DNA of 64,000 bases. Origin: Prevotella sp. ne3005. Lineage in GTDB: Bacteria > Bacteroidota > Bacteroidia > Bacteroidales > Bacteroidaceae. Every line of letters begins with the position of its first letter. Position 1 is the stretch's first letter. The stretch covers positions 1 to 64,000 of the forward strand of contig NZ_FOCK01000010.1 in the NCBI RefSeq assembly GCF_900110085.1. Reading direction: 5' to 3'. The position numbers and the translations under genes are program-made. Below are positions 123-61,121 of this stretch, piece by piece. The notes beneath the pieces are model-generated. The model searched no databases. It saw only the letters and a list, made by a program, of their open reading frames with translations, and was not told where the DNA came from.

Positions 123-253
123 ACTTTTCGGGGAAAATTTTCATTTGATTAAGGGGTATTTTTACACCTCTTGACATATATCAAATACAAAACAACCGTA
201 CACCTTATTATATATAATATAGGAAAAGAATTACATTACGGCTAAGCACAGGT

Positions 254-312
254 TTTACTCCGACTAAACTACGGCTTTACTACGGCTAAACTACGGCTTT
301 ACTACGGCTAAC
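254..312. repeat. Array A: three 22-bp phased palindromic units
   Basis: Three 15-base units lie at 254-268, 276-290 and 298-312, with centres at 261, 283 and 305, each 22 bp apart. The units read TTTACTCCGACTAAA, TTTACTACGGCTAAA and a last copy ending GCTAAC. Both 7-bp linkers are CTACGGC, so the array also shows an 11-bp subperiod. It lies between the leftward promoter at 92-122 and the rightward DUF4923 gene. The same geometry recurs in five other arrays of this window. Apart from this and the two promoters I see nothing in 123-405. Confidence 0.85.
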
Positions 313-2241: not shown

Positions 2242-3444
2242 ATGGCAAACAAGAAAGTTGTAGTAGCCTTTTCTGGTGGGCTTGACACCAGTTACACAGT
2301 TATGAAACTGACCCAGGACGGCTGGGATGTCTATGCTGCATGCGCCAATACCGGCGGCTTCAGCGAAGAGCAGTTGAAGAAGAACGAAGAGAACGCCTAC
2401 AAGCTGGGTGCTGTACAATATGTCACTCTTGACGTGACACAGGAATACTATGCCAAGTCACTGAAGTACATGATCTTTGGCAATGTGCTGCGTAACAACT
2501 GCTACCCCATCAGTGTCAGCAGTGAGCGCATCTTCCAGGCCATCGCCATTGCCCGTTATGCCAAGGAGATTGGCGCTGATGCCATCGCTCATGGTTCAAC
2601 AGGTGCTGGTAATGACCAGATCCGCTTCGACATGACCTTCCTCGTGATGGCACCAGGCGTGGAGATTATCACCCTGACTCGTGACAAGAAGCTGACACGT
2701 AAGGAAGAGGTGGACTATCTGAACGAACATGGTTTCTTCGCAGACTTCACCAAGCTGAAATATTCATACAACGTAGGTATCTGGGGTACCAGCATCTGTG
2801 GTGGCGAATTGCTCGACCCCACACAGGGGCTTCCTGAGGATGCCTACCTGAAGCACGTGACAGCCCAAGAGAAGGAGTCGCTACTGAAGATTCAATTCGA
2901 AAAGGGTGAGATTGTTGGTGTCAACGGTGAGAAGTTCGACGACCGTATCAAGGCCATCCAGAAGATTGAGGAGATTGGTGCTTCTTATGCCATCGGGCGC
3001 GATGCCAACGTTGGCGACACCATCATCGGCATCAAGGGGCGTGTAGGCTTCGAGGCTGCAGCTCCGAAACTGATCATCGAGGCACACCGTTTACTGGAAA
3101 AATCAACGCTCTCCAAGTGGCAGCAGTACTGGAAGGACCAGGTGGCCAACTGGTACGGCATGTTCCTCCACGAAAGTCAATATCTGGAGCCCGTCATGCC
3201 CGATATCGAGGCTATGCTGACCTCCAGCCAGCGTAACGTGACGGGTACAGCTATCCTGAAGCTTCGTCCCTATGGTTTCGAGACTGTAGGTATCGACTCT
3301 GAGAACGACCTGACGAAGTCGAAGCTTGGCGAATATGGTGAGACCCAGACTGGCTGGACTGCCGACGAGGCCAAGGGCTTCATCAAGGTTAGCTCTACCC
3401 CGCTCCGCGTTTACTACGGTATCCATAAAGACGAGAAGAGGTAA
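2242..3444 (+). CDS. argG: Argininosuccinate synthase
   Basis: ArgG joins citrulline and aspartate with ATP to give argininosuccinate in the cytoplasm. The 400-residue protein has the PP-loop AFSGGLDTS near residue 9, the normal length, and downstream conserved stretches such as HGSTGAGNDQIRFD around residue 116. It is preceded by the A-rich octamer leader and is followed after one base by argC, so the two are translationally close. In Bacteroidetes the substrate citrulline arises after deacylation of N-acylcitrulline made by ArgF'. Confidence 0.96.
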   Translation: MANKKVVVAFSGGLDTSYTVMKLTQDGWDVYAACANTGGFSEEQLKKNEENAYKLGAVQYVTLDVTQEYYAKSLKYMIFGNVLRNNCYPISVSSERIFQAIAIARYAKEIGADAIAHGSTGAGNDQIRFDMTFLVMAPGVEIITLTRDKKLTRKEEVDYLNEHGFFADFTKLKYSYNVGIWGTSICGGELLDPTQGLPEDAYLKHVTAQEKESLLKIQFEKGEIVGVNGEKFDDRIKAIQKIEEIGASYAIGRDANVGDTIIGIKGRVGFEAAAPKLIIEAHRLLEKSTLSKWQQYWKDQVANWYGMFLHESQYLEPVMPDIEAMLTSSQRNVTGTAILKLRPYGFETVGIDSENDLTKSKLGEYGETQTGWTADEAKGFIKVSSTPLRVYYGIHKDEKR

Positions 3445-3445
3445 T

Positions 3446-4411
3446 ATGATTAAGATAGGAATACTTGGTGCGGCAGGTTATACGGGCGGAGAGTTGATCC
3501 GCCTGCTGCTGAACCACCCCGAGGCAGAGATCGTCTTTGCCAACTCAGAGAGTAACGCAGGCAACCTTGTCAGCGATGTCCACGAAGGACTGATTGGCGA
3601 GACTGATCTGAAGTTTACCGATGAGATGCCTTTCGACAAGGTGGATGTCATCTACTTCTGTTTCGGCCATGGCAAGAGCGAGCAGTTCCTCAAGGAGCAC
3701 ACCATCCCCGAGAATGTCAAGATCATCGATCTGGCACAGGACTTCCGCATCAAGGGCAATCACGATTATGTCTACGGCCTGCCCGAGATCAACAAGGAGG
3801 AAATCATGAAGGCTCAACATGTGGCCAACCCTGGCTGCTTTGCCACCTGTATCCAAGTAGCCTTGCTGCCCGCAGCCTACCTGAATCTGCTGAAGGAAGA
3901 TGTAGCCGTCAATGCCATTACGGGTAGTACAGGCGCTGGTCAGAAGCCTGGTGCCACCACCCATTTCTCATGGCGCAACAACAACCTGAGCATCTACAAG
4001 CCCTTCCAGCACCAGCACATCGCAGAGATCCGCCAGAGCCTGAAGCAGGTACAGGGATATCTCGATGCCGACATTGACTTCATCCCCTATCGTGGCGACT
4101 TTGCCAGAGGCATCTTCTGCACAGCCGTTGTCAAGACACCTGCCCCTGTAGAGGATGTCATCGAGGCCTATAAGGAATTCTATGCCGATGCCGCCTTCAC
4201 CCACTACAGCGACAAGCCTATCGACCTGAAGCAGGTGGTAAATACCAACAAGGCATTGGTGCATGTGGAGAAGTACGGCAACAAACTGCTGATTACCTCC
4301 TGCATCGACAATCTGCTGAAAGGTGCTGTTGGCCAGGCTGTGCAGAACATGAACCTGATGTTCGGCATTGATGAAACCGCAGGTCTCCGCCTGAAAGCAT
4401 CTGCGTTTTAG
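3446..4411 (+). CDS. argC: N-acyl-gamma-glutamyl-phosphate reductase
   Basis: ArgC reduces N-acylglutamyl phosphate to the semialdehyde with NADPH. The 321-residue protein begins MIKIGILGAAGYTGGEL, a Rossmann nucleotide-binding loop, and has the catalytic Cys in NPGCFAT at about residue 131. I choose ATG 3446, one base after the argG stop; an in-frame start 40 codons upstream would lie wholly inside argG. It is the last gene before a 603-bp gap carrying array B and an inverted-repeat element. Confidence 0.95.
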   Translation: MIKIGILGAAGYTGGELIRLLLNHPEAEIVFANSESNAGNLVSDVHEGLIGETDLKFTDEMPFDKVDVIYFCFGHGKSEQFLKEHTIPENVKIIDLAQDFRIKGNHDYVYGLPEINKEEIMKAQHVANPGCFATCIQVALLPAAYLNLLKEDVAVNAITGSTGAGQKPGATTHFSWRNNNLSIYKPFQHQHIAEIRQSLKQVQGYLDADIDFIPYRGDFARGIFCTAVVKTPAPVEDVIEAYKEFYADAAFTHYSDKPIDLKQVVNTNKALVHVEKYGNKLLITSCIDNLLKGAVGQAVQNMNLMFGIDETAGLRLKASAF

Positions 4412-4444
4412 CTTACAGATAGGAGGTTGTGTCTAAAGTGGGGG

Positions 4445-4503
4445 TTTACTCGGAGTAAACCCCCACTTTACTCCGAGTAAAGTCCCAGTTTACTCACAGT
4501 GGC
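4445..4503. repeat. Array B: three 22-bp phased palindromic units
   Basis: Units lie at 4445-4459 (TTTACTCGGAGTAAA), 4467-4481 (TTTACTCCGAGTAAA) and 4489-4503 (third copy, right half decayed). Centres are 4452, 4474 and 4496, exactly 22 bp apart. The linker before unit 1 (GTGGGGG) is the reverse complement of the one after it (CCCCCAC), which extends the first palindrome to 29 bp. It begins 34 bp after the argC stop. Confidence 0.9.
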
Positions 4504-4508
4504 GTCGC

Positions 4509-4819
4509 GATGGTACGATGGTACGATAGTACGATGGTACAATTACAATTTTTCATTATGTTGCGACACGAAGAGGAAAAAGTTACGTCAACGGAGTGAT
4601 ATGTCTTTCTCTATATATCATTATTATTATACTTATATTATATATTAATATTATATAATAAATTATATATATTATAATATATATAATTCTAAAAGAGACC
4701 TATTGACATAAAAATTTTCTCCTCCTGTCGCAATGAACTATCACAAATGCAACCTTGCACCCATCCTGAAATTAGAAAAACGTAAATGTACCATCGTACT
4801 ATCGTACCATCGTACCATC
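4509..4819. repeat. 311-bp element with 32-bp perfect terminal inverted repeats
   Basis: The arms 4509-4540 and 4788-4819 are exact reverse complements over 32 bases, including an imperfect unit (GATAGTAC among GATGGTAC copies). Each arm is four tandem 8-base GATGGTAC-like units. Inside, TTGCGACA followed by a purine-rich run (about 4560-4580) recurs inverted near 4718-4736, so the inner parts are also imperfectly inverted, with about 30 extra bases in the right arm. The centre is extremely AT-rich. There is no ORF. It resembles a MITE or an intergenic hairpin element; no clear target duplication is visible. Confidence 0.8.
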
Positions 4820-6962: not shown

Positions 6963-7570
6963 GATACACGCTGCTGACACTCGCACTGATAAGCTGCATG
7001 GTGCTCTTGGCTCAAGAAACACCAAATAGCAGACAGGCCAAACGTGTGTTCAACACGGCATGGAACCATATCTATGGCAACGAAGGGGTGACGTTTCACT
7101 ACAAGATCAACATTCTACACCTCTATAAAGAAGAAGGGACGTCGTGGAACAAAGGCGACAAGGCCAGAAGTGAGCATAAGAACACTATCACCTATAGCGA
7201 CGGCAACCTGAAGCACATCGTGCGCACCAACAAGAAGATTGTCGAATTACATGACCCCAAAGTGAACAAGGCAGACGAAAAACTGCAGATGTTCAAGTTT
7301 GAGCCTGACAGCTACAACTACTCCATTGCGAAGGAAGGCGACGATCTGCTGGTAACACTGGTAGCCAAGCCCAAGACAAATGTGAAGATGAAGAAGATTC
7401 AAGCCCTGCTTACCCAAGGCAACTACTATCCCAAGCGCTTGCGTATCAAGGTCAGTATCTTCTGGGCCACCATTACTTTCTCCAACTTCCAGGCGGGTGA
7501 TATCGACGATGCCGTTTTCGTATACCCCAAGGAGAAATACAAAGATTATAAGGTCGTTGACCTGAGGTGA
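6959..7570 (+). CDS. LolA-like periplasmic protein
   Basis: This 203-residue protein has an N-terminal signal peptide (about residues 1-19, ending near LLAQE) and a strand-rich body resembling the LolA/LolB lipoprotein-carrier fold, for example FHYKINILHLYKEEGTSW and an acidic-lysine alternating C-terminal half. Classical LolA carries lipoproteins across the periplasm, but Bacteroidetes have several LolA-like paralogues with unknown cargo. It is translationally coupled to proC by an ATGA overlap. There is no obvious functional link to arginine or proline synthesis. Confidence 0.65.
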   Translation: MRYTLLTLALISCMVLLAQETPNSRQAKRVFNTAWNHIYGNEGVTFHYKINILHLYKEEGTSWNKGDKARSEHKNTITYSDGNLKHIVRTNKKIVELHDPKVNKADEKLQMFKFEPDSYNYSIAKEGDDLLVTLVAKPKTNVKMKKIQALLTQGNYYPKRLRIKVSIFWATITFSNFQAGDIDDAVFVYPKEKYKDYKVVDLR

Positions 7571-7640
7571 TTGAAAATTGAAAATTGAAGATTGAAAATT
7601 GAAAATTGAAGATTGAAAATTGAAGATTGAAAATTGAAAT
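7571..7640 (+). repeat. Ten-copy heptamer tandem repeat
   Basis: Ten head-to-tail 7-base units TTGAARA (mostly TTGAAAA, with TTGAAGA at copies 3, 6 and 8; the last is TTGAAAT) fill the gap between the LolA-like stop and the HTH-cupin start. The first six copies form two identical 21-bp blocks. Its copy number is likely to change by slippage. Confidence 0.9.
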
Positions 7641-17530: not shown

Positions 17531-17589
17531 GAAACAAATTGTTTCCCCTTAAGAAACAGAGTGTTTCACTAGAGGAAACAAATTGTTTC
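17531..17589. repeat. Array C: three 22-bp phased palindromes, GAAACA/TGTTTC type
   Basis: Units GAAACAnnnTGTTTC lie at 17531-17545, 17553-17567 and 17575-17589, with centres at 17538, 17560 and 17582, exactly 22 bp apart. The outer two extend to the 17-base palindrome GGAAACAAATTGTTTCC. The sequence is unrelated to arrays A, B, D and E but the 6+3+6 and 7-base linker geometry is identical. It begins 63 bp after the aldolase stop. I see nothing further in 17590-17856. Confidence 0.9.
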
Positions 17590-27316: not shown

Positions 27317-27375
27317 TTCCCATGCTGGGAATAAGTTGTTCCCGCCGTGGGAATAATTTGTTCCCATGCTGGGAA
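27317..27375. repeat. Array F: three 22-bp phased palindromes, TTCCCA/TGGGAA type
   Basis: Units TTCCCATGCTGGGAA, TTCCCGCCGTGGGAA and TTCCCATGCTGGGAA lie at 27317-27331, 27339-27353 and 27361-27375. Centres are 27324, 27346 and 27368, exactly 22 bp apart, with similar 7-base linkers TAAGTTG and TAATTTG. The array starts 33 bases after the NigD-like stop (minus strand). Sequence differs from the other arrays; geometry is the same. Confidence 0.9.
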
Positions 27376-27407: not shown

Positions 27408-28103
27408 TTAGTGCTGCAAAGGTATAACCTTTTCTTGTTTGCCAGAATAGGTATTGATGATTATATGGGCGGAATCAGCATCAAGCTGGGAAGTCGGGAT
27501 ACTGACGTATGCTTTAGTGGAATAATATTCAGGAACATGGTTCTGGTCGTGATGGAGCAACAGATGACGAGTACGCATGCCATTGGGATAAGTCAAAAGC
27601 GTATCCGTTAGGAATGCCAGTTGATGGACAGCAGACGTGTCTTCAGTCACTCCTGTCTTCAGATGAAGATAGAGATTCAGGTATTTCCCAGACTTGCTCA
27701 ACCAAATGCTCTCGAACTTAACAGGATCGGTACGGAATTCCTTATCAAAATCTGACAAAGGCTTAATAGTCACACAAGGGACCTGTCCCATCGACAAGAC
27801 CTCAGCAGCATACTGGCCCTGATGTTGTTCCACCTTATTATAATATAGCATACAACGGTAAATGGTATCAGCAGTCGTTATCCATTTGGCGCTGTATGGT
27901 TTCACCAACGGCAAGAGATCACCATCATCGGTTGTCATAGAAACAACTTGTTTGTTGGCATCAGTCCTTGCCTCTACAAAGTCACCCCGCATCAAGGAAT
28001 ACTTACCCTCACCTTTCTCATAAGTATCCTGAGTGCAGGAAGAAGTGAGAAACGTGAGGCAGCAAATGATGAGGAATGGCAGAATACTGAAGAGTCTTTT
28101 CAT
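27408..28103 (-). CDS. NigD-like lipoprotein
   Basis: This 231-residue protein has a lipoprotein signal (TFLTSSC, Cys23) and a strand-rich body with MRGDFVEARTD, TTDDGDLLPLVKPYSAKW and DTIYRCMLYYN, the pattern of the Bacteroidetes NigD-like family. Function is unknown. It overlaps the upstream acyltransferase gene by four bases (ATGA) and ends the envelope operon that starts at 31982. Confidence 0.7.
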   Translation of the reverse strand: MKRLFSILPFLIICCLTFLTSSCTQDTYEKGEGKYSLMRGDFVEARTDANKQVVSMTTDDGDLLPLVKPYSAKWITTADTIYRCMLYYNKVEQHQGQYAAEVLSMGQVPCVTIKPLSDFDKEFRTDPVKFESIWLSKSGKYLNLYLHLKTGVTEDTSAVHQLAFLTDTLLTYPNGMRTRHLLLHHDQNHVPEYYSTKAYVSIPTSQLDADSAHIIINTYSGKQEKVIPLQH

Positions 28104-48835: not shown

Positions 48836-48894
48836 TTTACTCGGAGTAAACCAGGACTTTACCCGGAGTAAAGTGAGGGTTTACTCCGGGTAAA
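48836..48894. repeat. Array D: three 22-bp phased palindromic units
   Basis: Units TTTACTCGGAGTAAA, TTTACCCGGAGTAAA and TTTACTCCGGGTAAA lie at 48836-48850, 48858-48872 and 48880-48894. Centres are 48843, 48865 and 48887, exactly 22 bp apart. The linker before unit 1 (CTCTCAC) is complementary at 6 of 7 positions to the linker after unit 2 (GTGAGGG), so a longer hairpin spanning two units is possible. It starts 46 bp after the preceding stop. Confidence 0.92.
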
Positions 48895-49026: not shown

Positions 49027-49099
49027 CGGGATGTAGCGCAGTTGGTAGCGCACTACGTTCGGGACGTAGGGGTCGGGCGTTCGAGTCGCCTCATCCCGA
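49027..49099 (+). tRNA. tRNA-Pro (CGG anticodon)
   Basis: A complete cloverleaf is visible. The acceptor stem CGGGATG pairs with CATCCCG, the D stem is GCGC/GCGC, and the anticodon stem CTACG/CGTAG encloses the loop TTCGGGA with anticodon CGG. The T arm is GGGCG-TTCGAGT-CGCCT. The discriminator base is A and the CCA end is not encoded. It has its own -7 element and terminator. Confidence 0.95.
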
Positions 49100-49123
49100 C
49101 TTTTGAGACTTTACAGCATGATA

Positions 49124-59064: not shown

Positions 59065-59214
59065 ATGGATTTTATCAGAACGCTCATCATCGGATTTAAG
59101 CAAGGAGCCATCGCTGCTTGGTACGACATGAAATGGTACATCATTATCATGAGTATCATCCTCATCCTTGCCATAGGCTACAAAGCCCTCAAAACCTTGT
59201 TCCGACGGAAATAA
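59065..59214 (+). CDS. 49-residue membrane protein with its own promoter
   Basis: The frame from ATG 59065 encodes MDFIRTLIIGFKQGAIAAWY, then a membrane helix rich in Ile (WYIIIMSIILILAIGY) and the basic end LKTLFRRK. A perfect consensus promoter precedes it and array E follows 11 bases after the stop, so it looks like a complete monocistronic gene. The short conserved-looking amphipathic start and positive-inside tail suit an inner-membrane small protein. Function unknown. Confidence 0.72.
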   Translation: MDFIRTLIIGFKQGAIAAWYDMKWYIIIMSIILILAIGYKALKTLFRRK

Positions 59215-59224
59215 GGCCTTGGAC

Positions 59225-59283
59225 TTTAGTCGGAGTAAAGTCAGACTTTACCCGGAGTAAACTCCCACTTTAGTCGGAGTAAA
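59225..59283. repeat. Array E: three 22-bp phased palindromic units
   Basis: Units TTTAGTCGGAGTAAA, TTTACCCGGAGTAAA and TTTAGTCGGAGTAAA lie at 59225-59239, 59247-59261 and 59269-59283. Centres are 59232, 59254 and 59276, exactly 22 bp apart. Outer flanks CCTTGGA and TCCAAGG are complementary. A degenerate fourth unit in phase (59291-59305, 9 of 12 stem bases) overlaps the stop codon of the convergent acyl-CoA synthetase gene. Confidence 0.92.
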
Positions 59284-59291
59284 CTCCAAGG

Positions 59292-61100
59292 TTACTCCTC
59301 GTACATCTTATCGATCTCCTTGCGGTAGTTCTCGTTGAGGACGCGACGCTTGATCTTCAGCGTGTTGGTAAGCTCGCCACGCTCGATGGAGAAGTGATGG
59401 GGCAGCAGGGTGAATCGCTTCACCTGTTCGTAGTGGGCCAGCTGCTGCTGAAGGGTGTCGATACGCTCCTTCATCATCTCATAGATCTGCGGATTGGCAC
59501 AAAGCTGCTCGCGAGTCTCAAACGGGATACGATGCTCGCGGGCATATTCCTCCAACAAGGGATAAACGGGGATGATAAGGGCCGAGACAAACTTTCGCTG
59601 ATCGGCAATGATGGCTATCTGATCGACGTACTTGTCGACGAGCAGCTTCGACTCAATCATCTGAGGTGCGATATACTTGCCATTGGAAGTCTTGAAGAGG
59701 TCCTTGATGCGCTCTTTGAGGAACAGCTCACCACCCTCGAGGTAGCCAGAGTCACCAGTACGGAAGAAGCCATCTTCAGTAAAGGCGGCCTTGGTGAGGT
59801 CATCACGATTGTAGTAGCCCTTCGTGATGGTGGGGCCTTTCAACAGCACTTCGCCCTCTTCGCTGATACGGATCTCGATACCCTCGATGGGGATACCTAC
59901 GCCACCAACGGTATAAGGCTCGCCCAGATGGTTACAGCTTACTGTAGCAAGACTCTCAGTAAGGCCATAGCCCACGATCATGTTGATGCCGATGGCGTGG
60001 ACGAACTCCTCAACCTTGGGATTGACCGTAGCACCAGCCGTGGGGAAGAAGTGGGCATTCTCAAGGCCCAGTTCCTTGCGGACGAGTGAGAAGACGGTCT
60101 TATTGAGCATCTCATACTCCATGTGGAGGGCCAGCGGTGGGCGCTTGCCTTTCGAGAGATAGTCGATATTATGGCGCTTGCCCACATTCAGGGCATGCTG
60201 GAAGAGTTTACGCTTGGCGGTATTGGCCTTCTCTATCTGCTCCTGCACGCCCATGAACACCTTTTCCCAGAAACGGGGAACGCTTGACATACACGTGGGA
60301 TGAGTCTGTTTCATCGACTGCTGCACCTCTTGCGGATAGGTGTTGACAATGAGGCGCGCCCCTTCCGTAATACACAGGATCTTCCATCCTTTCTCAAAGA
60401 TATGGGTGAAGGGCAGGAAATTGAGCACCCGATCATTTTCGCCTACGGGCACACACTTGTTGTTGGCCTCCATGGCTGCATGATACTGGCCACAGGTAAG
60501 TATCACGCCCTTGGAGTCGCCCGTTGTGCCTGAGGTATAGAGGACATTGGCAATATCGTCCATCGAAGCCTGACTCTGGAGGGCCTCCACTTCCGTCTGA
60601 CGGGGCAGGTTCTCACCCAGTTTCAGAAAATCGTCGAAGTACATGGCGTTGGAGTCGTTCTCGGAGAGGCGCACATTCTGATCGAAAACGATGATGCGCT
60701 CGAGGGTCTTGCAGGTGGAGGCCACGCGACGGGCCTTGTCATACTGCTCCTGTTCGCCTACAAACAGAAAACGGATCTGGGCATCGCCAACCATGAACTG
60801 TATCTGCTGCTCACTGCTCGTGGCATAGAAAGGGATGGTGACGGCACGGATGCCCCATGCGCCAAAGTCGCAGAAGAGATACTGCACGGAGTTTTGTGAG
60901 AACACGCCCACATTCTCCTGCACCTTGACACCCAGATTGAGCATGGCATTAGAGACTTGTTTCACCGTTGCGGAAAACTGATTCCACGACATCGACTTCC
61001 ACTCGGAACCACCGAAATCCTTGTAGATCAGCTCTTCACGATCGCCGTATTTTGCGGCCTGATCGTGAATCAATCGCGATAAATGACTGTTTGTCTGCAT
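59292..61100 (-). CDS. Long-chain fatty acid--CoA ligase
   Basis: This 602-residue ANL enzyme activates long-chain fatty acids with ATP and CoA. Motifs are VLYTSGTTGDSKGV (about residue 183), VGYGLTESLATV, GDSGYLEGGELFLKERIKD (about 450-470) and a C-terminal catalytic Lys near ELTNTLKIKRR. The size and the hydrophobic insert fit the FadD15-like bacterial group. ATG 61100 is chosen; a start two codons upstream is possible. A -7 element TACATTTG lies at 61122-61129. Confidence 0.88.
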   Translation of the reverse strand: MQTNSHLSRLIHDQAAKYGDREELIYKDFGGSEWKSMSWNQFSATVKQVSNAMLNLGVKVQENVGVFSQNSVQYLFCDFGAWGIRAVTIPFYATSSEQQIQFMVGDAQIRFLFVGEQEQYDKARRVASTCKTLERIIVFDQNVRLSENDSNAMYFDDFLKLGENLPRQTEVEALQSQASMDDIANVLYTSGTTGDSKGVILTCGQYHAAMEANNKCVPVGENDRVLNFLPFTHIFEKGWKILCITEGARLIVNTYPQEVQQSMKQTHPTCMSSVPRFWEKVFMGVQEQIEKANTAKRKLFQHALNVGKRHNIDYLSKGKRPPLALHMEYEMLNKTVFSLVRKELGLENAHFFPTAGATVNPKVEEFVHAIGINMIVGYGLTESLATVSCNHLGEPYTVGGVGIPIEGIEIRISEEGEVLLKGPTITKGYYNRDDLTKAAFTEDGFFRTGDSGYLEGGELFLKERIKDLFKTSNGKYIAPQMIESKLLVDKYVDQIAIIADQRKFVSALIIPVYPLLEEYAREHRIPFETREQLCANPQIYEMMKERIDTLQQQLAHYEQVKRFTLLPHHFSIERGELTNTLKIKRRVLNENYRKEIDKMYEE

Positions 61101-61121
61101 AAGCAATTATATAATCCGCTG

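Follow-up and report, generated by a model that had tools for sequence, protein, structure and literature searches.

Intergenic arrays of alternating 4-bp words at an exact 22-bp period in Prevotella genomes

Six arrays in a 64-kb window

The stretch of DNA analysed here, hereafter the window, comprises 64,000 nucleotides of one contig (G000:C16:1-64000) of the source genome, G000 (3.57 Mb, 21 contigs). The window contains six intergenic arrays (Table 1). The core of each is a 4-bp word that alternates with its reverse complement at a step of 11 bp, so that palindromes recur every 22 bp. Every word-to-word step in the six arrays is 11 bp, and the dyad centres are 22 bp apart. At 10.5 bp per turn, 22 bp is not exactly two helical turns.

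Table 1. Arrays and neighbouring genes in the window
Feature	Coordinates	Strand	Words	Remarks
Array 1	237..311		TTTA/TAAA, 5 exact words (254-301)	7-mers CTCCGAC, CTACGGC x3
argC-like gene	3326..4411	+		upstream of array 2
Array 2	4434..4492		TTTA/TAAA (6)	22 bp past stop of argC-like gene
Array 3	17531..17589		GAAA/TTTC (6)	three perfect 15-bp palindromes; 62 bp past a stop
Array 4	27317..27375		TTCC/GGAA (6)	32 bp past stop of minus-strand NigD-like lipoprotein gene
NigD1/NigD2-like lipoprotein gene	27408..28103	-		adjoins array 4
Array 5	48836..48894		TTTA/TAAA (6)	45 bp past a stop, upstream of tRNA-Pro
tRNA-Pro	49027..49100	+		downstream of array 5
49-residue ORF with hydrophobic stretch	59065..59214	+		converges on array 6
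Array 6	59225..59283		TTTA/TAAA (6)	flanked by convergent stops at 8 and 10 bp
Acyl-CoA ligase-like gene	59292..61106	-		end adjoins array 6

A search for chains of at least four words (a 4-bp word, then its reverse complement after 11 bp, then the word again) found six in the window at the step pair (11,11); the next-best step pair gave four, which belong to these arrays too, and no chain turned up in any of 30 first-order Markov controls. These counts confirm the six exactly spaced arrays of the preliminary description. Tandem Repeats Finder picked up five of these arrays at period 22 and missed the one at 48836. The same description had the units as invariant palindromes of two 6-base arms around a 3-base centre. 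The word and the spacing are indeed fixed, but perfect 6+3+6 palindromes are a minority (8 of 18 units, with three units counted per array): array 1 has arms of only 4 bp, and array 2 consists of two full units with broken ends. The fixed part is thus the 4-bp word, its reverse complement and the 7-bp gaps, whereas the 7-mers filling the gaps vary. Likewise, the reported split into four arrays with TTTACT/AGTAAA arms and two with unrelated arms holds as four, one and one, with the words corrected to TTTA, GAAA and TTCC, respectively. Five arrays do follow a stop codon, at 8-62 rather than 11-63 bp (array 1, at the window edge, was excluded).

Other repeats also occur in the window. The 7-bp direct repeat ATTGAAA is present ten times at 7570-7639, beginning at an ORF end; 14 bp is also a frequent period of non-coding tandem repeats in related loci. 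Behind array 2, the 8-bp tandem repeats CGATGGTA and GTACCATC lie at 4508-4540 and 4788-4819, with an AT-rich stretch between them.

Copies and gene context in the source genome

Across G000, the pattern TTTA-N7-TAAA-N7-TTTA-N7-TAAA has 49 forward matches and, when read backward, none; the TTCC form has 22 matches and the GAAA form 4. From these genome-wide searches, 33 non-redundant TTTA arrays were recovered, mostly of five or six words. In about 480 kb of G000 sequence unselected for arrays, where a pair is followed by another word within 6-20 bp, this word is 11 bp away in 21 of 22 and in 15 of 18 cases; loss of the period in other copies, which the preliminary description had named as grounds for refuting it, was not observed.

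With a crude gene caller that misses small genes, 34 G000 arrays were assigned to tandem (19), convergent (6) and divergent (7) contexts, one being within a called ORF and one at an edge, so that 32 of the 34 lie between called genes; random intergenic placement would give fractions of 0.63, 0.10 and 0.28 for the three contexts. Of the seven arrays called 'divergent', at least two actually follow a DUF4248 gene overlooked by the caller. A location solely behind genes is not supported, with 7 of 34 arrays between divergent genes by this crude calling. Among tandem-context arrays from several sets, 26 of 36 are nearer the upstream stop than the next start.

The G000 arrays share little beyond the array itself, with a median reach outside of 3 bp for pairs with a match. 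Several pairs have homologous flanks besides the HU-HIG duplicates described below: L008 resembles L010 and L151 at 71-81 percent over 106-211 bp, and the flanks of L008, L010, L151, L153 and L004 are homologous over 66-211 bp despite different neighbour genes.

G000 contains a multi-copy HU-HIG subfamily with a divergent DUF4248 gene (L315-L320) and a TTTA array at a similar distance in six copies. There are 20 HU-HIG matches in this genome, and the six, all of one subfamily, carry the array some 505-621 bp before the start, in two cases in degenerate form; a seventh locus, L307, carries a four-word TAAA chain and another triple. Because the flanks are homologous where compared, the six loci are taken as duplicates of one locus. 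Among 30 HU-HIG loci from other genomes, a TTTA chain is present in two (L336, L345), another chain or triple in L340, L342 and L353, a four-word chain within GC-rich repeats in L339, and lenient AT-rich triples in L330 and L348. Matches to the G000 HU-HIG protein number 22 in G018, 15 in G136 and 8 in G032, all rich in TTTA arrays like G000, and 0 in G120 and 1 in G030, though both have many TTTA arrays. HU-HIG was considered as a partner of the arrays and set aside, with the six linked arrays read as duplicates and no conclusion drawn from the genome counts.

Word families in the genus and the order

Among 150 same-genus genomes (G000 included), the TTTA form is found in 22, 14 of them with at least three matches (up to 63) and eight with one; the TTCC form in 42, including 37 with at least two matches (up to 72); and the GAAA form in 39, including 26 with at least two (up to 62). 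The patterns read backward matched in 10 genomes for TTTA (108 matches in G006, otherwise 1 or 2), 2 for TTCC and 9 for GAAA (1-5 matches); therefore, single matches can be background. The backward control is not neutral because it is also a legal word: G006 has an AAAT family, with 108 matches. Other words are found as well in G032, G072 and G094, several per genome. The word families are patchy among species, a genome having many copies of one word, and the 7-mers under one word differ by species; for example, STCSGAS lies inside the TTTA..TAAA unit in G000 and in the linker in G018. At L218 and L226, arrays with different words are within about 180 bp of each other.

An order-wide search of 295 genomes (G000 included) found the TTTA form in 33, none with more than three matches except G000, and the backward pattern at a similar level, except for AAAT in G226 and G330. 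These genomes, from another family of the order, have 21 and 16 matches, respectively, to AAAT-N7-ATTT-N7-AAAT-N7-ATTT, perhaps another array family or AT-rich background. The array at 48836-48894 has no match in plasmid and phage collections. Seven contigs of a viral collection (L297-L303) carry exact arrays, two of them three-unit TTCCCA arrays and five six-word TTTA arrays.

Word-blind scans and tandem repeats

A strict scan for triple palindromes with 6-bp arms, regardless of the word, was run on 80 named Prevotella loci fetched by one transporter gene (1.46 Mb). At period 22, it detected 20 arrays, of which 2 are even-centred and 18 odd-centred; a single orthologous site accounts for 8 of the latter. 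Other periods, with both centres summed, gave 6 (period 33), 4 (44), 3 (18), 2 (27) and 0-1 for the rest. The words in these arrays are unrelated (TTCCCA, AAAATG, AAGTAA, AAAACA, CTATCACTG). A lenient scan of the same loci gave 31 at period 22, 26 and 13 at multiples of 11 and at most 7 elsewhere. The claim that geometry is conserved while sequence is not is supported: unrelated words have the geometry in common, in G000 and in many genomes of the genus.

In the window, the strict and the lenient scans alike give four arrays at period 22. In the 400-kb contig C8 of G000, the strict scan gives none and the lenient scan 3 at period 22 and 0-2 at other periods. For 20 other Prevotella genomes (365 kb), the counts at period 22 are 1 strict and 3 lenient, with 4 lenient at period 15, which is no clear excess, and 20 genomes outside the genus (269 kb) are at background level only (strict 0; lenient 1, AT-rich). 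Therefore, the density of arrays varies greatly within the genus.

Non-coding tandem repeats show the same preference. In the named loci, 47 have period 22, compared with 1, 18, 3 and 2 at periods 20, 21, 23 and 24, and 22 is the commonest period in the range 9-49 both in this set and in the G000 set (14 repeats); the 20 other Prevotella genomes have 7 such repeats and the outside-genus sample 2. Among 45 consensus units from the named set, an inverted 4-bp word is found at offsets 9/13 in 24, 7/15 in 20 and 11 in 18; the counts at even offsets are 4-6. After shuffling of the units, the frequencies at offsets 9, 13 and 11 are about 9, 9 and 4.5 percent. In 12 of the 45 units, there is no inverted 4-bp word at any tried offset.

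Turnover at orthologous sites

Arrays can be compared across species at one site, which lies between the end of a gene (...EARMGLR or a similar ending) and a TPP riboswitch. This gene end is seen in 13 of the 80 named loci, and Rfam matches the riboswitch in all three such loci scanned. Eight of the 13 carry a TTCC array, L020 a TTTC/GAAA array and L034 both words mixed; L021 and L023 have, as judged by eye, an ordinary intrinsic terminator, and L049 neither array nor terminator. Arrays at this site keep their position and geometry even where the word differs. Compared with L020, L034 shows, by eye, two paired changes and one G.U-type change, which would fit a hairpin. In the eight TTCC arrays, the words are identical at 672/672 positions over 28 pairs, a partly selected identity given that these arrays were grouped by having the TTCC word, and the 7-mers at 751/980 (0.77); the ungapped 20-bp flanks are 0.47 and 0.56 identical.

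Two arrays of the window are missing from the relatives compared. The nearest named relative, L016, lacks array 5 at the corresponding position, and array 6 was not found past the ligase stop in 24 examined loci of 50 with the ligase. When 149 relatives were searched at the DNA level, the ligase-end matches, among those listed, stop before array 6 except in G000. A segment of about 300 bp that contains array 6 and the small convergent ORF is absent from relatives that have the same pair of genes.

In G030 and G006, the array is part of a longer repeated element, and the G006 copies share flanks. The G030 repeat (L167-L179) is roughly 105 bp long and has a central TTTA array and a terminal T-run on one side, and several copies are at contig ends; by eye, the copies share 76-171 bp with TTGAAAT...ATTTCAA ends. 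In G018, two arrays (L139, L140) end beside the palindrome TTCTCTAGAGAA.

Base pairing and constraint

Selection for pairing of the arms would be expected to make the inner bases of both halves match. In counts that relatedness among units could bias, the halves within units pair as by chance in G000 (188/282 positions, expected 183; 47 matches) and G006 (103/132, expected 105) and below chance in G018 (19/138, expected 49) and G120 (74/282, expected 105). The linkers, under the same caveat, pair below chance in G000 (34/141, expected 59), G006 (22/66, expected 33; on distinct units, too few, n=7) and G120 (45/141, expected 70) and as by chance in G018 (45/69, expected 46). A reading of the whole array as a single long hairpin, visible by eye in some cases (L020, L030), was rejected: in G000, the corresponding complementarity is not above chance (207/329, expected 199, P 0.09). 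A pooled TTCC set, which mixes genomes, exceeds shuffles for inverted and direct similarity alike. Within arrays, 350 cells are unchanged, 178 changed on one side, 23 on both sides complementarily and 25 on both sides non-complementarily; about 11 complementary changes are expected, in a count blurred by array edges.

Four paralogous arrays beside HU-HIG/DUF4248 genes agree at 128/144 word positions (0.89) and 125/210 7-mer positions (0.60), and the sole pair fetched without a word pattern at 19/24 versus 23/35. The stronger constraint on words than on 7-mers that these values suggest is apparently in part real and in part a selection effect.

Several features of RNA elements were also assessed. 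The combination of a hairpin with a sense-strand T-run that marks intrinsic terminators is not seen in the arrays except, by eye, in G030. TTTT downstream shows no excess over AAAA upstream of tandem-context arrays in G000 (2 vs 2 of 19), the named loci (4 vs 3 of 12), G006 (3 vs 3 of 5) or the TTCC loci (1 vs 2 of 13). Sense-strand wobble in 43 arrays comes to 81 G.T versus 55 A.C (P 0.03) and, with seven of the eight TPP orthologues dropped, in 36 arrays to 64 versus 50 (P 0.22). Arrays at most 120 bp from a stop show no G.U bias (20 versus 25), and those farther away show 44 versus 25 (P 0.03), for which we offer no explanation. Rfam, run on the window and six loci at the gathering threshold, gave no match over an array, its hits being confined to tRNAs and TPP riboswitches, and some arrays stand behind a separate terminator-like hairpin (by eye). 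The suggestion that the arrays form RNA 3'-end structures is thus not supported as a general function by either T-runs or near-stop wobble, nor do the halves co-vary in the TTTA and AAAT sets. Given the independent halves, the mostly non-self-complementary linkers and the lack of a T-run or G.U signal, half-sites for DNA-binding dimers would fit better than RNA hairpins; on these sequence comparisons, the evidence moderately favours half-sites over base pairing.

Possible nature of the arrays

The geometry, the word families, the distribution and the independence of the halves in the tested sets are direct observations. Tentatively, we read the arrays as tandem dyads that act at the DNA level as binding platforms for dimeric proteins. 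A half-site would consist of one 4-bp word and some inner bases; a dimeric protein, or related dimers with different words, would bind cooperatively to several adjacent dyads, and the 7-bp gaps would be only loosely constrained. The bound stretch of intergenic DNA, more often on the stop-codon side, might serve as a roadblock, an insulator or a local organiser of the nucleoid or of supercoils. The protein, its cooperativity and the function of the arrays are all parts of the model that we infer. The period of 22 across unrelated words, the preference for odd-centred dyads and the 11-bp step in unselected sequence argue for such a platform. The paired changes between L034 and L020 argue against it, as do the complementary changes within arrays (23 versus about 11 expected, in the count blurred by array edges), a period that is not exactly two helical turns, the stop-side bias, which a pure DNA platform does not require, the lack of a strict array in the 400 kb of C8 and the lack of a clear excess in the 20 other Prevotella genomes. 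A protein platform had been among the earlier suggestions, and it is the best fit to the data, but no binding protein for the arrays was found, and to our knowledge, none is known for arrays of this kind. Several words per genome (TTTA, TTCC and GAAA in G000) would call for several proteins or a sequence-blind reader. This multiplicity of words is the strongest objection to the dimer model and also what makes the finding interesting.

The main rival to the dimer platform, possible if somewhat doubtful, is that the arrays are mobile, selfish REP/BIME-like repeats, with the 22-bp layout fixed by the recognition of an enzyme, the words representing lineages and a host function that is absent or incidental. 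Such repeats would account for the many copies of a single word in a genome and its patchiness among species, for the absence of arrays 5 (L016) and 6 (24 loci examined) at the same place in relatives and for the listed ligase-end matches in 149 relatives that stop short of array 6 except in G000, as well as for the defined ends of the G030 copies and the flanks shared in G006 and by some G000 arrays. They are harder to reconcile with the lack of matches to the Y1/RAYT family in G000, while 5 of 14 control genomes match, with the 3-bp median reach outside the array in G000 pairs with a match, with the fact that no common ends were seen and with a geometry common to unrelated words. Functionless expansion of palindromes in 22-nt steps, through slippage or template switching, is an improbable origin: the excess of period-22 non-coding repeats in the named loci (47 vs 1, 18, 3 and 2) and the 12 of 45 units lacking an inverted word are what such a mutational by-product would leave, but inverted words cluster at odd offsets, arrays stay in place from species to species at the TPP site, and we know of no slippage mechanism that yields exactly 22. 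Quite improbable, too, is an RNA element, that is, tandem hairpins at mRNA 3' ends that would terminate or stabilise the transcript. The stop-side position of 26/36 tandem-context arrays, the arrays that take the place of the intrinsic terminators of L021 and L023 at the TPP site (by eye), the paired changes in L034 and the terminal T-run of the G030 copies are all compatible with this role, which is contradicted by the lack of a T-run excess, near-stop wobble of 20 G.T versus 25 A.C, halves that are independent or anti-complementary, the lack of an Rfam match and the arrays that stand behind a separate terminator-like hairpin (by eye) or between divergent genes.

A bolder reading, likewise possible if somewhat doubtful, is an element defined by geometry only, a 22-bp ruler that would place dyads on one face of the DNA throughout Prevotella intergenic DNA, with either a letter-blind reader or writer or paralogous dimers whose words diverged while one quaternary layout was retained. 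Bacterial repeat families are normally recognised by sequence, and sequence-based repeat finding would not group these arrays because they share spacing and symmetry but not letters; the constant spacing despite differing letters points to machinery that reads or makes the 22-bp interval. If found, a reader or writer of this spacing would represent a new family of nucleoid or insulator proteins in an abundant gut and rumen genus; alternatively, a writer would be a new way of making repeats.

Comparison with known repeats and binding sites

The preliminary description knew of no such element, and our search of the literature, most subscription papers being outside its reach, likewise found no description of such 22-bp arrays; the accessible parts of PMC3733652 and PMC5771137 contain no matching description. 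PINSR, the repeat of the Prevotella intermedia group, is also intergenic and amplified in a Prevotella lineage; according to the accessible text of PMC4755523, it is a conserved 188-bp sequence without terminal inverted repeats, whereas G000 array copies mostly share little outside the array (a comparison by description only). The dRS3 elements (NIME) of Neisseria similarly form intergenic arrays of short inverted repeats, and their sequence, ATTCCC-N8-GGGAAT, 20 bp in length (PMC3898611, accessible part), resembles the TTCC family. However, the Prevotella arrays have N5 in place of N8, a 22-bp period and other words too, and the commonest TTCC form is TTCCCA-N3-TGGGAA.

Among protein-binding sites, the extended site of the LysR-type regulator OxyR resembles the arrays in layout. 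That site has an inverted 4-N7-4 layout. Its 4-bp elements are about one turn apart and are contacted on one face (PMC3953959, accessible part). The arrays, too, have at least four 4-bp elements about one helical turn apart. Unlike the OxyR site, with four elements of the word ATAG at promoters, they contain 4-11 words of other letters (TTTA, TTCC, GAAA, AAAT and others) and are mostly not at promoters.

The closest likeness overall is to BIMEs, the assemblies of REP units, for which binding of gyrase, IHF and Pol I and Rho-dependent termination are reported in the accessible text of PMC2817692. Like BIMEs, the arrays are intergenic, occur in many copies and consist of regularly spaced palindromic units in alternating orientation, with words every 11 bp and 32 of 34 G000 arrays between genes. 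REP families differ in having a shared sequence, a GTAG-type head and a RAYT gene, whereas the Prevotella arrays have differing words at exact 22-bp spacing. Membership in the REP/RAYT family was rejected: the Y1 (RAYT) transposase domain PF01797, matched in 5 of 14 control genomes, has 0 matches in G000, and the tags within 15 bp outside either end of 31 G000 TTTA arrays, on either strand (GTAG at 5/31, CGTC at 8/31), are near the roughly estimated chance value of about 6, with no consistent tag. We call the arrays, whose mechanism we can only model, BIME-like extragenic palindromic arrays of a previously undescribed variant.
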